Assembly: GCF_024227435.1 (NCBI RefSeq)
Contig: NZ_CP100445.1
Coordinates: 124,001 to 188,000 of the forward strand
From: Natrinema caseinilyticum
GTDB taxonomy: Archaea > Halobacteriota > Halobacteria > Halobacteriales > Natrialbaceae
Reading direction: 5' to 3'
DNA length: 64,000 nucleotides
Of this stretch, positions 37,133 through 53,113 are shown piece by piece (the stretch's first letter is position 1; each line of letters opens with the position of its first letter). The position numbers and the translations under genes are program-made. The notes under the pieces are model-generated. The model was not told the DNA's origin and searched no databases. It saw nothing but the letters and a program-made list of their open reading frames with translations.

Positions 37133-37290
37133 ACTCGGCCGTTCACGACGCCGTCACTTAAACGCACTCACACGGCGCTGACCGTCCGCTCGGACCGCAG
37201 CGCTCGCGTCACAGCGTCGTGTGTCGTCGCCGCCCCGAGCGATCCAGATTCCTTTACTACCCTCGGCCCGAATCACCCGATAGGAACCAC

Positions 37291-38106
37291 ATGGTACTGA
37301 CCAAACGAGTCATCCCGTGTATCGACGTGGATCTGGACGACGACGGGAACCCCGCCGTCTATACCGGCGTCAACTTCGAGGACCTCGAGTACACCGGCGA
37401 TCCGGTCGAGATGGCGCGCGCGTACAACCGCGCGGGCGCCGACGAATTCGTCTTCCTCGACATCACCGCGTCCGCGGACGGTCGCGAGACGATGCTCGAC
37501 GTCGTCGAGCGCGTCGCCGACGAGGTTTTCATACCCCTGACCGTCGGCGGTGGCATCCGGACGACCGAGGACATCAAAGAAACGCTCAGAGCCGGTGCGG
37601 ACAAGGTTTCGATCACGACCGGCGCACTCGAGCGACCGGAACTGGTAAACGAAGGCGCCAGGGCGTTCGGCAGTCAGTGTATCGTCATCAGCGTCGACGC
37701 CAGACGGCGGTTCGACGAGGACGGCGAACACTACGTCGAGATCGATGGCGAATCCTGCTGGTTCGAATGTACGAAGAAAGGCGGCCGCGAAGGGACCGGA
37801 ACCGACGTCCTCGAGTGGGCCGGCGAGGCAGAGTCTCGCGGCGCAGGTGAGTTGTTCGTCAACTCGATCGACAAGGATGGGACGAAAGACGGCTACGATC
37901 TCCCGCTGACCGCGGCCGTCTGCGAGACCGTCGACACGCCGGTCATCGCATCCTCGGGCTGCGGTAGTCCCGAGGATATGTACGACGTGTTCACCGAGGC
38001 CGGCGCCGACGCCGGACTCGCCGCTTCGATATTCCACTTCGACGAGTACTCGATCGAAGAAACGAAAGCCTATCTCGACGATCACGGGGTTCCGGTTCGA
38101 CGCTGA
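37291..38106 (+). CDS. hisF: Imidazole glycerol phosphate synthase cyclase subunit
   Basis: 271 residues from ATG 37291, beginning [20 protein letters not shown] with the catalytic Asp in [17 protein letters not shown] and [14 protein letters not shown] are the two phosphate-binding loops, and ISVDARR holds the second catalytic Asp. HisF uses ammonia from HisH to make imidazole glycerol phosphate and AICAR in histidine synthesis. No other his gene sits beside it, but a HisG-like protein is encoded at 50475-51401. The frame extends upstream to 37219 without similarity. Confidence 0.95.
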
Positions 38107-47753: not shown

Positions 47754-48587
47754 ATGATCGAAAGCGACTGGAGCGATTGGCTCGTCCGCGACGTCGCAGA
47801 CGCGACACCGGACGGGGTCGCGATCTGGTATCTCGGCTGCAACGGGTTCGTTTGCAAGGGATCCGAGGGAACGACGATCTACATCGATCCGTACCTCGGC
47901 CTGGGTGATCCGCCGCGGACGGTTCGCATGATTCCGGTACCGTTCGACCCGGCCGACGTCACCGAAGCCGACGCCGTCCTCGCGACGCACGAACACACCG
48001 ATCACGTTCACGGACCGAGCCAGGCACCCATCCTTGCGAATACGGGCGCGTCCCTGTACGCTCCCGACGACAGCATCGCAGTCGCTCGCGAAGACGAGAA
48101 CTGGACGGCCGAGTGGGACGTCACGGACGACCAGTTGACCGAAGTAGCCGAGGGGGAGACGCTCGAGTTCGGCGAGTTCACGATCCACGTCGAGGACGCC
48201 TACGACCCCGACGCGACGCATCCGGTAAGCTACGTGATAGAACACGATGCGGGTACGTTCTTCCACGGCGGGGACACCAAACCGACCGACGAGTTCGGTC
48301 GAATCGGGGACGAGTACGATATCGATCTCGCGGCGCTCGCCTTCGGAACCGTCGGCCAGATTCCCGACAAGCAGACCCGCGAGCCGACCCGGACCCGCTG
48401 GTACAACGACGAAAATCAGGTCATCGAGTGTGCTGACGCCCTCGAGTGTGAACGACTCCTGCCGAGCCACTGGGATATGTGGAAGGGTCTCACCGCCGAT
48501 CCGACGGCGCTGCACCACCACGCGCGCAGTTTCGAGCATCCGAGTCGACTCGAGATCGTCGAGGTCGGCGACCGCGTCGAACTCTGA
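47754..48587 (+). CDS. UlaG-like metallo-beta-lactamase-fold hydrolase
   Basis: 277 residues. THEHTDHV (about residues 79-86) is the metal-binding HxHxDH motif; FFHGGDTKPTDEF (about 169-181) and LPSHWDMWKG (about 238-247) supply other ligands. The fold resembles L-ascorbate-6-phosphate lactonase UlaG and related RNA- or lactone-cleaving enzymes. The natural substrate is unknown. It follows the tandem winged-helix gene by 18 bases. The long downstream gene starts 69 bases after it behind its own TATA box. Confidence 0.85.
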   Translation: MIESDWSDWLVRDVADATPDGVAIWYLGCNGFVCKGSEGTTIYIDPYLGLGDPPRTVRMIPVPFDPADVTEADAVLATHEHTDHVHGPSQAPILANTGASLYAPDDSIAVAREDENWTAEWDVTDDQLTEVAEGETLEFGEFTIHVEDAYDPDATHPVSYVIEHDAGTFFHGGDTKPTDEFGRIGDEYDIDLAALAFGTVGQIPDKQTREPTRTRWYNDENQVIECADALECERLLPSHWDMWKGLTADPTALHHHARSFEHPSRLEIVEVGDRVEL

Positions 48588-48656: not shown

Positions 48657-50372
48657 ATGAGTAGCACCGCCGACACTGATGACGTGATCGAGATCAGTAC
48701 TGACGGAATATCCGTCCGGAAAACGTTCACGGCGGACGAATTTCCCGTTCCAGCGATCCGGTTCGAGATCGAATCGAACCGGGACGATCCGGTTACGTTT
48801 CAGCTTTCGGAAGACGTTCCGTCGTCGTTTCCGATGGATCGGGTCGGATTCCACCCGGACTATCATAGCGAGGACTGGACGGCTTTCCAGGACAATCACG
48901 TCGAGTTCACCGCGACGCTCGAGCCGAACGAACGCCTCGTAACGGTCTACGGGATCCAACTCGAGGACCTAAGTCGAGGTGCGGAATTCCTCTCCGAGCC
49001 GACCGTCGTGGAACGCAGCGGCGACGACGATATCGAGCAATCCGAAGCCGAGGAACTCGACGACGAGCTTATCGGCAATATCGTCTCCGAGGACGGTAGT
49101 CAGGCCGTCAAAGATATGATCAGCGGGGAGTCGGAGTCGATGCCTGGTCTCGAGGACGTAGAGACGATCGAGCCCGGTCCGGATGTCGATCTCGGAGACG
49201 ATGTCGGCTCTACCGACGAGACAGCGGAGGATACGATCGGCCTCGATCTCGACCTCAGTGACGTGGATCCAGAACCGATCGACGTCGATGCGGACGACGA
49301 GGACGAAGGGGATGAACCGCCGGATATCGATCTCGGGTTCGAAGAAGAAGAAATACCGGAGCCGGATACCGACGAGCCCGCGATCGACACGGATGCCGAT
49401 GACGCACCCGATCGACCAGGCGTCGATCTCGATATCGGGACCGAGACGAGTGAAACCGATATCGGCGGTGGCGCCGGCGAGGGGACCGCGGCCGACCCAC
49501 CGGACGATTCCGGCATCGAAATCGACCTCGGGCTCGACGATTCAGAAGCCAGAGACGGTGAGGACGACGCGCCGTCCGTGGGGTCCGACCTCGATTCGGA
49601 GCCGGTCGGAGAGACCGATCTCGACACTGATCCGGTTGGAGAGACCGATCTCGACACCGATCCGGTCGGAGAGGCTGTATCGGGCACAGAACCCGCTCTC
49701 GATTCGGAGCCTGACGCGGAGGCCGATCTCGATCCCGGACCAGGCGAACCGATCGGGACCGAACGTGAGGAGCGGACCGAGGAATCGACCTCGAGCGTCG
49801 AGATCGACGTCGCTGGCTCGGTCGCGGCGCGTCTCGCGACCGAGATTCGTGAAGGGTCGGTCGACGAGGAGGATCTCGAGGTTATTCAGTCAGAGTTCGA
49901 CCTCGAGCCGACGGGGGCCGACATCGCGAAGATCGATCACCTCCAGTCTCGCGTCGAGGAAGTCACCGCCTACACGGATTCGCTCCAGACGTTCCTCGAA
50001 GAAAACGGCACCGGCGCACAGCTCATCGACGAACTCCAGACCAAGATCGACTCGCTCGAAGCCGACCTCTCGTCGATGGACGAGCGGTTGACGGAGACGA
50101 ACGACCGGGTCGACGACGTCGAAGCCGACGTGGTCGATCTCACCGACTGGAACACCGATCTCGAATCCGACCTGGGGGCCGTAACGAACGACGTCGACGC
50201 GGTCGAGGGGACCGTCGACGAACTCGCACACGACATCGGGACTGTCGACGACGACGTCAAATCCGTCGCGGACGACCTCAAAGCGGTCGAGAGCGACCTC
50301 GAGGATGTCAGATCCGACGTGACCGAGATCCATGAGTGGCGCGAGGAACTCGGATCGATGTTCTCCGACTAA
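48657..50372 (+). CDS. Acidic-linker coiled-coil protein
   Basis: 571 residues with three parts. Residues 1-118 form a beta-rich domain (GISVRKTFTADEFPVPAIRF, ENPFL-free, ending LEDLSRGAEFL). Residues about 119-390 are an extremely Asp/Glu-rich low-complexity linker with repeats such as PVGETDLDTD. Residues about 395-571 are a long helical coiled coil (LQSRVEEVTAYTDSLQTFLE, then VEADVVDLTDWNTDLESDL) ending SMFSD. The design suggests a scaffold or bridging protein. No Walker, HTH or membrane motif is seen. A HisG-like gene follows 102 bases later on the same strand. Confidence 0.82.
   Translation: MSSTADTDDVIEISTDGISVRKTFTADEFPVPAIRFEIESNRDDPVTFQLSEDVPSSFPMDRVGFHPDYHSEDWTAFQDNHVEFTATLEPNERLVTVYGIQLEDLSRGAEFLSEPTVVERSGDDDIEQSEAEELDDELIGNIVSEDGSQAVKDMISGESESMPGLEDVETIEPGPDVDLGDDVGSTDETAEDTIGLDLDLSDVDPEPIDVDADDEDEGDEPPDIDLGFEEEEIPEPDTDEPAIDTDADDAPDRPGVDLDIGTETSETDIGGGAGEGTAADPPDDSGIEIDLGLDDSEARDGEDDAPSVGSDLDSEPVGETDLDTDPVGETDLDTDPVGEAVSGTEPALDSEPDAEADLDPGPGEPIGTEREERTEESTSSVEIDVAGSVAARLATEIREGSVDEEDLEVIQSEFDLEPTGADIAKIDHLQSRVEEVTAYTDSLQTFLEENGTGAQLIDELQTKIDSLEADLSSMDERLTETNDRVDDVEADVVDLTDWNTDLESDLGAVTNDVDAVEGTVDELAHDIGTVDDDVKSVADDLKAVESDLEDVRSDVTEIHEWREELGSMFSD
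49602..49673 (+). repeat. 30-base in-frame tandem repeat
   Basis: Inside the coiled-coil gene, a 30-base unit coding PVGETDLDTD is repeated at 49602-49631 and 49632-49661, with a partial third copy to 49673. Two third-position changes show it is not a very recent duplication. Confidence 0.85.
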
Positions 50373-50474
50373 CGCTGTCACGCGGGTGCAACCGACCCGG
50401 GTAGCGTCCGGTTGCAGTGCTCGTCTATCCCGAAAACACAACTCGTTTATCCGTCGCCGGTCGAGAACCGGTCG

Positions 50475-51401
50475 ATGGGCGAGACGATACCGATCGCTGT
50501 TCCACGGAAGGGCCGGCCGCTCGAGTCGGTACTCGACCGGCTCGCGAATCGACTCGACGTCCCCGAACTAGCGGACGACGTCACGTCGATCCTTCGTCAC
50601 GAAAAGGCGCTCACGAAGGGAACGATCGACGCCGACGAAACTGACGTCTACCATCGTCTCGCAGAATACAGTACCGTCGACGATCCGACCGCGCCGGAGT
50701 TCACCCTGCTGCGGGACGATCGCGCCGGAAAACCGCGCCGAATCGTCTTCGATAGCGTCACGATTCCGCTCGCCGACGTCGAAGGCGCGCCCGAAGACAC
50801 CGCAATTCAGCTCGTGGGGCGCGAGGAACCGTTTCGCGCCCTTCGAACCCACGAATTCGCACTCGGGTTCGACAGCGCGGATCTCGTTCTCGAGGAGGTC
50901 GTCGAGTTACGGCCGGAACCGCTCGAACGGATCGCCGACGTGAACGCTCGAATCAACCCGTCGGACACTGACGTCCAGGTCGTCACCGGCCTCGCAGACA
51001 CGGTCTACCACACGCTGTTGGCCACGCCCGAAGTCGTTCCCGCAGCAGGGTCGCTCGACCGAGCGTTCCTCGCGGAGTACGAGGGTCCGCTCTGCATCGA
51101 GCCGCGGTACGAACGTCTCGTTCAAGCTGTACTCGGTACGCAGACGCTCGACGGAGTAGAATTCCGCTATCCCGAGGCGAGCCGCGAAGAGGAGGCGGCG
51201 ATAGCAGACGCGGGACTGGGTGTCTATCTGACCGTCACCGGATCGACCGCGCGGGACCACGGCCTCCTGCTCGGCGAACGACTGTTCCCGAGCGAGACCG
51301 TCCTGCTCGAAAATACGGTGGAGACCACCGACACGATCGATTACGTCCGCTCGGTGGTGAACGGATCCGACCTCGAGACGGAACTCACTGTCGAACCGTA
51401 A
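50475..51401 (+). CDS. HisG-like (ATP phosphoribosyltransferase-fold) protein
   Basis: 308 residues from ATG 50475. It opens TIPIAVPRKGRPLESVLDRL, the usual HisG start pattern, and later has LADTVYHTLLA, PLCIEPRYERLVQAVLG, then EEAAIADAGLGVYLTVTGST and ARDHGLLLGERLF, matching the HisG order of strands and phosphate-binding loop. It is shorter and more divergent than a standard HisG in the middle, where an extra segment (about 60-130) intervenes. It may be a paralogue with another substrate rather than the histidine enzyme. The frame extends upstream but the first part is not similar. Confidence 0.6.
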   Translation: MGETIPIAVPRKGRPLESVLDRLANRLDVPELADDVTSILRHEKALTKGTIDADETDVYHRLAEYSTVDDPTAPEFTLLRDDRAGKPRRIVFDSVTIPLADVEGAPEDTAIQLVGREEPFRALRTHEFALGFDSADLVLEEVVELRPEPLERIADVNARINPSDTDVQVVTGLADTVYHTLLATPEVVPAAGSLDRAFLAEYEGPLCIEPRYERLVQAVLGTQTLDGVEFRYPEASREEEAAIADAGLGVYLTVTGSTARDHGLLLGERLFPSETVLLENTVETTDTIDYVRSVVNGSDLETELTVEP

Positions 51402-51681: not shown

Positions 51682-52728
51682 TTACGCGGTGACGGCGTAG
51701 ATATGAGCGAGATAGGTTTCCCGGACGCGATCACCCCAGTTGTGGGTGTACGTGTCGATGACGTCACCGGCGACGTCACCGCGGAGGTACTGAACGATCC
51801 CTCGATCGCCGGTTCGGTCCCGGAGGTGCGTCGTGAAGAAGTGTCGGAAGTAGTGTGGCGTAACGTTCTCCTGTGTTCCGCCACCAGTCCGGTACCACCC
51901 GCGTCTTCGTGCGTGCTTTTCGACGATATAGCGAACGTCCGATGGAGAGAGCCGTTCGCCCCACGAATCACCGGTATCGAGAAAGAGCGGGCGGGCGGGC
52001 GATACCGCGTCCGGGCGAATCGCGAGCCACTCGAGCAACACACGCTCCAGTTCGCCGTCCACTGGAACGACCGTGTCTCGCTTTCGTTTGTTCGAGGCTG
52101 TCCGTTCTTCGCCGTTGACGGTCGTTCCACGGGCTGGCTCCGCCGAAACGAACAGCGAGGACGATCGGCGTTCGAGTCCGACGCGGGGCGTCCATTCGAT
52201 GTCGAGTGACCGCGGTTCGAGGTTCAGATCTCGAAGATCGAGGTTACAGAGTTCGCCGACACGCATCCCGGTCTTCAGGAGTGCGATCACGACGGCCCGT
52301 TCGAGTGGGTGCCCGATCTCGTCGACGAACGTCCGCATCTCTGCAACCGACAGATCACGCCTCGTGGGATTCGTATCGATCGATTCGGGCAGTTCCTCCA
52401 TCACGAGTCCCATCGGATTGGCTTCGAAGACACCGACACGGGTCATATAGTCGTAGAATCTGTTGAGATAGGAGGCGTAGGTCGCGATCGTGCTGGATTC
52501 GAATTCACCGCGCAGCGAGTGGATCCAGGCCATACACTCCCGTCGCTCCGGCGCAGCGACCGAATCGACGTCGAAGCGTTCGTCGACGAACCCCTCGAAC
52601 TGTCGAAGCACGCGCTCGTAGGCCTCGAGCGTCCGTTCGCTCTTGCCGTGGTATCGCTGGTCGTCGAGGAAATACGCGATGGGGTCGTCGACCTCCTCCG
52701 GTTGCGCCTGCCCGGGTTCAGTCGTCAT
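51682..52728 (-). CDS. Tyrosine recombinase (XerC/D-like integrase)
   Basis: About 348 residues. The N-terminal SAM-like DNA-binding domain (about 15-110) and the catalytic domain are both complete: TGMRVGELCN (Arg), NKRKRDTVVPVDGELERVLL (Lys), HYFRHFFTTHLRD (His-x-x-Arg) and DTYTHNW (nucleophile Tyr). It cuts and rejoins DNA as a monomer pair. No att site or phage gene is nearby, so it may be a chromosomal Xer-like enzyme. ATG 52728 overlaps the DUF5805 gene by 11 bases; GTG 52737 is another choice. Confidence 0.88.
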   Translation of the reverse strand: MTTEPGQAQPEEVDDPIAYFLDDQRYHGKSERTLEAYERVLRQFEGFVDERFDVDSVAAPERRECMAWIHSLRGEFESSTIATYASYLNRFYDYMTRVGVFEANPMGLVMEELPESIDTNPTRRDLSVAEMRTFVDEIGHPLERAVVIALLKTGMRVGELCNLDLRDLNLEPRSLDIEWTPRVGLERRSSSLFVSAEPARGTTVNGEERTASNKRKRDTVVPVDGELERVLLEWLAIRPDAVSPARPLFLDTGDSWGERLSPSDVRYIVEKHARRRGWYRTGGGTQENVTPHYFRHFFTTHLRDRTGDRGIVQYLRGDVAGDVIDTYTHNWGDRVRETYLAHIYAVTA

Positions 52729-53113
52729 CGTCACCACCGTCGACCGTCGTGTACCCTCCGTGGCGCCCGCTGTATCGGATTCGATTGTTCGTCTGCAGTT
52801 GCTCGATCGTCTCGTCCAGTCGCGACTCGATGTCTTCGGAAACCGCCTCGAGGAGTTCGTCCCACGAATACGTGTCAGCGGAAAGCAACTCGAGGACCTG
52901 CTTTTCGAGGCCGTTACCCCCAGGGTCTGGGTCCGGAGAAGAGGGTTCCATAGTGTCTGATTCGAAACCTTTTCGGCCGGCCTGAACCATCGCTCTGACG
53001 AATTCGCTTTGACTCATCCCGAGGTCGTCTGCGTGTGATTGCCATTCAGATTTCTGGTAGGCTGGGACGTACGTTTTGACAGCCGTTCGAGATGTATCCG
53101 ACGTTTCGCCCAT
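52718..53113 (-). CDS. DUF5805-type protein paired with the recombinase
   Basis: 131 residues. The N-terminal part (MGETSDTSRTAVKTYVPAYQ then KSEWQSHADDLGMSQSEFVR) reads like a ribbon-helix-helix DNA-binding segment. The C-terminal part (about 68-131, LEKQVLELLSADTYSWDELL then DIESRLDETIEQLQTNNRIR) resembles a winged helix. The order, RHH then wHTH, and the overlap with the integrase suggest a DNA-binding accessory or regulator of recombination. The pair is known from other haloarchaea to my recollection. Its AT-rich promoter is upstream of 53113. Confidence 0.82.
   Translation of the reverse strand: MGETSDTSRTAVKTYVPAYQKSEWQSHADDLGMSQSEFVRAMVQAGRKGFESDTMEPSSPDPDPGGNGLEKQVLELLSADTYSWDELLEAVSEDIESRLDETIEQLQTNNRIRYSGRHGGYTTVDGGDDDD

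Follow-up and report, generated by a model that had tools for sequence, protein, structure and literature searches.

A 308-residue protein encoded at 50475..51401 (+) in the window, the 64,000-nucleotide stretch of the Natrinema caseinilyticum genome analyzed here (C1:124001-188000; whole genome 4.77 Mb), is a divergent paralog of HisG that is confined to Halobacteria as far as we searched. HisG catalyzes the step that commits metabolism to histidine synthesis and is feedback controlled, and its fold is distinct from those of other phosphoribosyltransferases. We tentatively propose, with a little less than even confidence, that this HisG-like protein is a second, feedback-insensitive ATP phosphoribosyltransferase; we infer that it uses PRPP, takes ATP as the acceptor, and escapes feedback. 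A widespread paralog with a different architecture and an altered active site would mean either a natural replacement of the HisG step or a second reaction for the fold.

In our literature searches on haloarchaea, including Haloferax volcanii, we found no description of this protein, of a hisG paralog, or of a missing ATP phosphoribosyltransferase. In the available part of a Natrinema genome paper, a hisG/E/I/A/F/H/B/C/D set appears with no second hisG (PMC3402447), and in the available parts of three Haloferax volcanii papers that mention hisG, including PMC4300041, the name denotes an E. coli strain marker.

The protein resembles HisG weakly in sequence and strongly in predicted fold

The reading frame was confirmed to run from an ATG at 50475 to a TAA at 51399-51401. 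A TTG at 50412 offers a longer open alternative, and we preferred the ATG because orthologs align from it. Relative to the gene of a close relative (L003), we observed 9, 5, and 57 differences at codon positions 1, 2, and 3, respectively, and the excess of third-position changes indicates purifying selection. Among 33 orthologs, 96 of the 308 positions were invariant; the closest named relatives came from Natrinema. The ORF is confirmed as a genuine gene, beyond chance.

The original prediction had described the product as a divergent HisG-like protein encoded apart from any his operon and had called for a profile search against HisG. The likeness found by this search was weak: the Pfam HisG family (PF01634) matched at 13.2 bits, below its cut-off of 25.5, and NCBIfam returned no match. 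PF01634 was matched by 30 of the 33 orthologs at E ≤ 1 (best 2.4e-4), and TIGR00070 (hisG) by 12 of them at E ≤ 0.1 (best 0.0066). When the two families were compared profile to profile, the C-terminal loop alone aligned (E 0.0026, probability 11.5).

We then built an AlphaFold2 model from the 33 orthologs (pLDDT 90.3, pTM 0.87). All 50 Foldseek matches listed for this model were HisG (best E 3.2e-9), and with a second structural aligner the first 35 PDB rows were again all HisG, with Z scores of 12.3-14.8 over 190-218 residues; the row after these scored 9.6. The predicted model thus has the HisG catalytic-core fold, so the lack of any match to the phosphoribosyltransferase fold that might have told against the prediction did not materialize. 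Together with the sub-cut-off score and the absence of a recognized adjoining his gene, the fold upholds the description of a divergent HisG relative, whose likeness is weak in sequence and, by the model, strong in fold.

The genome also encodes one canonical HisG (C1:2250975-2251856, 294 aa), and its full length can be aligned with archaeal 2vd3. With this ordinary full-length enzyme present, the HisG-like protein is a second, divergent one, and not the only HisG of the genome, the finding that would have undone the original prediction.

Several other matches were rejected. Staufen double-stranded-RNA-binding domains in the PDB (E 0.64-0.94, profile positions 43-91) were judged to be chance, the strands in that region being explained by the model, as were Cyclin-L2 (E 0.29) and 8axj (E 1.1). 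We also rejected the Pfam winged-helix GDS1 (8/33 orthologs, best E 0.0067), the U-box (3/33, best 0.011), and other scattered matches.

A HisG core with an insertion and an altered active site

Judged from the model, the protein consists of the HisG catalytic core, interrupted after helix 1 by an insertion, and lacks the histidine-sensing C-terminal domain. We mapped residues to HisG by ungapped register tests and by manual placement following the succession of helices and strands in the model, counting residues in the 33 orthologs and in 19 HisGs; MAFFT and global hhalign alignments of the two families contradicted the secondary-structure order and were not used.

The original prediction had rested on an opening motif and late loops, and the motif and the late TGxT loop proved sound. 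The PRKGRPLE motif (residues 10-17; 50502..50525, +) is the counterpart of the HisG KGR motif, and its R14 aligns with Psychrobacter HisG Arg32; K12, G13, and R14 were kept in all 33 orthologs, and the motif registered with HisG starting at residue 1 (rank 1 of 171 offsets, 0/2000 shuffles). The late loop, GVYLTVTGSTARDHGL (residues 249-264; 51219..51266, +), is the counterpart of the HisG TGxT loop, the PRPP phosphate loop, and registered equally uniquely (rank 1 of 159, 0/2000 shuffles). Its T255 was T in 30 and S in 3 of the 33 orthologs, and G256 and T258 were present in all of them. These two registers were the only ones significant alone.

The middle of the protein differs from HisG, again as predicted: an insertion of ∼55 residues (about residues 28-85; 50556..50729, +), placed by hand from the secondary structure of the model, consists of two helices and one strand that lie between the elements corresponding to helix 1 and strand 2 of HisG. 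It is followed by a PRRIVFD motif (residues 87-93; 50733..50753, +), in which R88 (32/33 orthologs) and R89 (33/33) align with Psychrobacter HisG Arg56/Lys57; this register was the best fit (rank 1 of 179) and not significant alone (shuffle p 0.61). Both leaving-group arginines of the Psychrobacter enzyme, Arg32 and Arg56, therefore have counterparts here. Only 16 of the 19 HisGs carry R at the Arg56 position, so this position alone does not define the family. In the Psychrobacter enzyme, R32A costs 25-fold and R56A 42-fold, according to the part of the study available (PMC9734150).

Further segments gave mixed results. Segment 110-141 (rank 1 of 159, shuffle p 0.44) and strand 175-186 (rank 1 of 179, p 0.91) fell at the expected place, and segment 236-262 also ranked first (of 164, p 0.06); segments 167-186, 204-221, and 237-253 were not at the expected register (ranks 3, 66, and 14). 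HisG E143 fell on E238 (29/33 orthologs), beside the invariant E239/E240, and R116 lay one residue off HisG R49 in the best register.

Other positions count against an ATP phosphoribosyltransferase. Two aspartates present in 19/19 HisGs were replaced by Gly247 and Tyr251 in 33/33 orthologs, and Y251 occurred in all 111 HisG-like sequences counted (100 distinct), 10 of them from genomes without HisG. Psychrobacter Cys115 fell on Y178 (31/33 orthologs), and the register tests found no alignable counterpart of the HisG AT-x-x-P segment. In the same partly available study, C115S costs 117-fold and C115A only about 4-fold. On the other side, Asp179 of that enzyme is replaceable at about 4-fold cost, which speaks in favor of an ATP phosphoribosyltransferase (PMC9734150). 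Because both its score and the two aspartates depart from those of HisG, the protein should not be classed as HisG.

Structural alignments with 2vd3, 1h3d, and the C. jejuni and M. tuberculosis chains stopped at chain residues 209-222. The protein thus extends roughly to the end of the HisG core and has no counterpart of the histidine-binding domain found in long-form HisG; consistent with this, no C-terminal histidine-sensing domain was matched by Pfam in the protein or its 33 orthologs.

The consistently changed aspartates could also suit a non-catalytic HisG-fold ligand-binding protein or regulator that would sense PRPP, AMP, or another phosphate and possibly work with the coiled-coil neighbor found in 71/80 loci (see below). 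The fold is also related to that of binding proteins and of LysR-type effector domains (3uif, Z 9.4; 5ted, Z 9.3). However, charged residues that never vary are numerous, and several fall at positions of HisG motifs, a pattern that looks enzyme-like, and no DNA-binding family matched any of the 33 orthologs better than E 0.0067; we consider such a role improbable.

The HisG-like protein is the rule in Halobacteria and persists in genomes without HisG

An ortholog was found in 45 of 61 genomes searched, the present genome included. A named-genome scan confirmed 205 loci, of which 80 were kept, with names that we take to be haloarchaeal except for one "uncultured archaeon"; the two sets overlap in species, and Natrialbaceae weigh heavily. 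Full-length orthologs were present in 106 of 116 genomes of the class. Among 392 genomes of the phylum, full-length matches occurred in 72, all of one order, and none was seen outside the class. A further 16 phylum genomes matched over profile positions 204-287 only (E 9.4e-5 to 0.0057); we provisionally took these short out-of-class matches for ordinary HisG. In one genome (G134), which has a canonical HisG, the HisG-like gene lies in two pieces (C70:360651-361539) and is perhaps frameshifted or a decayed copy.

HisG and the HisG-like protein occurred together in 102 of the 116 class genomes. Such coexistence suits a function of its own for the HisG-like protein and counts against our preferred explanation. 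None of the 116 lacked both proteins, an observation in favor of that explanation.

Canonical HisG was found in 377 of 391 class genomes. The remaining 14 comprised G001, all six genomes of genus g50, all three of g170, two of g51, and one each of g54 and g40. The G001 assembly consists of 120 contigs, so its missing HisG is perhaps a gap, and HisG was present in at least five other g51 genomes. In the three g50 genomes tested, a 19-row HisG profile gave no match even at E 10, and HisD, HisB, and HisE were all found; one of these genomes (G087) is a single contig of 2.84 Mb. The same three proteins were present in G001. G087 HisE reached 96.8 bits (cut-off 42.7) as a phosphoribosyl-ATP diphosphatase, the enzyme whose known substrate is the product of HisG. 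A source of phosphoribosyl-ATP should therefore be expected in g50, where, going by the sequences found, the HisG-like protein would be the sole candidate of such kind. The original prediction had suggested a new substrate or a regulatory role; the absence of hisG from whole genera that keep the HisG-like protein, with later his genes present in the genus tested, points rather to an ATP phosphoribosyltransferase. Also in G087, a TIGR01548 HAD hydrolase gene lies about 1.7 kb from hisE. In the available part of a study of H. volcanii, strains with an insertion in a gene for a HAD hydrolase, which may or may not be of this family, required histidine (PMC4300041).

The HisG-like protein was present in 13 of the 14 HisG-less genomes; the exception, G485 of g51, lacked both proteins and counts against the ATP phosphoribosyltransferase reading. 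Given the base rate of 106/116, 13/14 is no enrichment. The HisG-less genera might obtain histidine in some other way, by uptake or by an unrelated ATP phosphoribosyltransferase, independently of the HisG-like protein. The prevalence of this protein in any case and the lack of both proteins in G485 agree with such an explanation, which is nonetheless rather unlikely in our estimate, as the three g50 genomes tested keep HisE, HisB, and HisD.

At columns invariant in the 33 orthologs, the g50 proteins carried A33V and S134A (6/6) and, inside TGxT, N or G for S257 (5/6); those of g170 carried V19A (3/3) and S257N (2/3). V19A and S257G also occurred in a HisG-bearing g54 genome, so substitutions in the HisG-less genera tell little.

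The genomic neighborhood is conserved and not obligatory

A gene for an UlaG-like metallo-beta-lactamase-fold hydrolase (47754..48587, +) and one for a coiled-coil protein with a conserved N-terminal stretch (48657..50372, +) precede the HisG-like gene. Of the 80 loci, 73 had the hydrolase upstream within 3.5 kb, and 71 had the coiled-coil protein within this distance upstream, in the same orientation; for the conserved stretch of the latter, no Pfam name was among the matches listed. In G088, which has no HisG-like gene, ORFs resembling a recombinase, coiled coil, hydrolase, and Dph2 followed in that order, and the coiled-coil and hydrolase-like ORFs thus persist there without it (L195, 8686-11225). 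Neither neighbor was found near the HisG-like gene in any of the six g50 loci (L174, L175, L176, L201, L202, and L203). In all six, the gene instead lies between homologs of GTP cyclohydrolase III and the BtpA family, families that were assigned in G087 only, with another ORF intervening between the gene and a flanking homolog in L201; a BtpA homolog was also present within 5 kb in two g54 loci. The link to the hydrolase and the coiled coil is loose.

On the other side of the gene, a tyrosine recombinase and a small DUF5805 protein are encoded in tandem (51682-53113, -). Each was near the HisG-like gene in 48 of the 80 loci, and they are apparently a conserved chromosomal recombinase pair.

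No his gene was recognized adjoining the HisG-like gene in the loci read. The original prediction had noted hisF 13 kb away, and hisF (37282..38106, +) indeed lies about 12.4 kb upstream. This distance means little because HisG, HisE, HisB, and HisD are also encoded far apart in the N. caseinilyticum genome. A second histidinol dehydrogenase match was observed on another contig (C2:568578-569786).

The non-his neighbors, both those conserved in most loci and the GTP cyclohydrolase III and BtpA homologs of g50, favor a HisG-fold PRPP-dependent phosphoribosyltransferase with another acceptor, which would have its own function beside HisG and perhaps a link to the hydrolase and coiled-coil protein. 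The retention of the arginines and the TGxT loop, yet with two aspartates changed and no AT-x-x-P counterpart aligned, fits this reading as well; both the aspartate changes and the presence of HisG in the same genomes are easier to reconcile with an acceptor other than ATP. We nevertheless regard it as unlikely overall, though worth serious consideration: it leaves the source of phosphoribosyl-ATP in g50 unexplained, and the neighbors are not obligatory, as the hydrolase and coiled coil of G088 and the g50 gene without the coiled coil illustrate. An independent supply of histidine in the HisG-less genera is compatible with either another acceptor or a non-catalytic role; because these explanations overlap, our probabilities for them do not sum to one.

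A candidate second ATP phosphoribosyltransferase

Under the preferred explanation, a second ATP phosphoribosyltransferase, the HisG-like protein has most likely kept the transfer of phosphoribose from PRPP. The HisG fold of the model, the retained R14, R88/R89, and TGxT residues, and the HisG-less genus with later his genes speak for it. In this scheme, the 5'-phosphate would sit in the TGxT loop, the ribose would be bound by an acidic residue (E238-E240), and R14 with R88/R89 would assist the departure of pyrophosphate; ATP is the most likely acceptor. Long-form HisG senses histidine through its C-terminal domain, and a protein without this domain is probably not inhibited by histidine. In most species, the protein would work beside HisG, and in genera that lack hisG it would supply the histidine pathway by itself. 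We put forward with more doubt the broader claim that Halobacteria have an unrecognized second form of ATP phosphoribosyltransferase, free of feedback and with a Tyr-for-Asp site, that took over the first histidine step in at least one, and possibly two, hisG-less genera. Genomes in which HisG is missing and later his genes are retained allow the question of function to be tested directly.

Comparison with known systems

With long-form HisG (PF01634 plus a regulatory domain; 2vd3, 1h3d), the protein shares the predicted core fold, the order of elements, the KGR arginine, the RK/RR pair, and the TGxT loop. Unlike long-form HisG, it scores below threshold, has the ∼55-residue insertion, lacks the C-terminal domain, has two Asp residues replaced, and is encoded with no his gene seen adjoining. 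With short-form HisG, which acts with HisZ (Psychrobacter arcticus 6fca, Lactococcus lactis 1z7n), it has in common a core without the C-terminal domain and counterparts of both leaving-group arginines; however, it reaches about 300 residues through its internal insertion, compared with 200-230 in the short form, and its genome also encodes a long-form HisG. Type II periplasmic-binding-fold proteins share the two-domain fold in general, with Z scores of 9.4 (3uif) and 9.2 (1sw1) compared with 12.3-14.8 for HisG.
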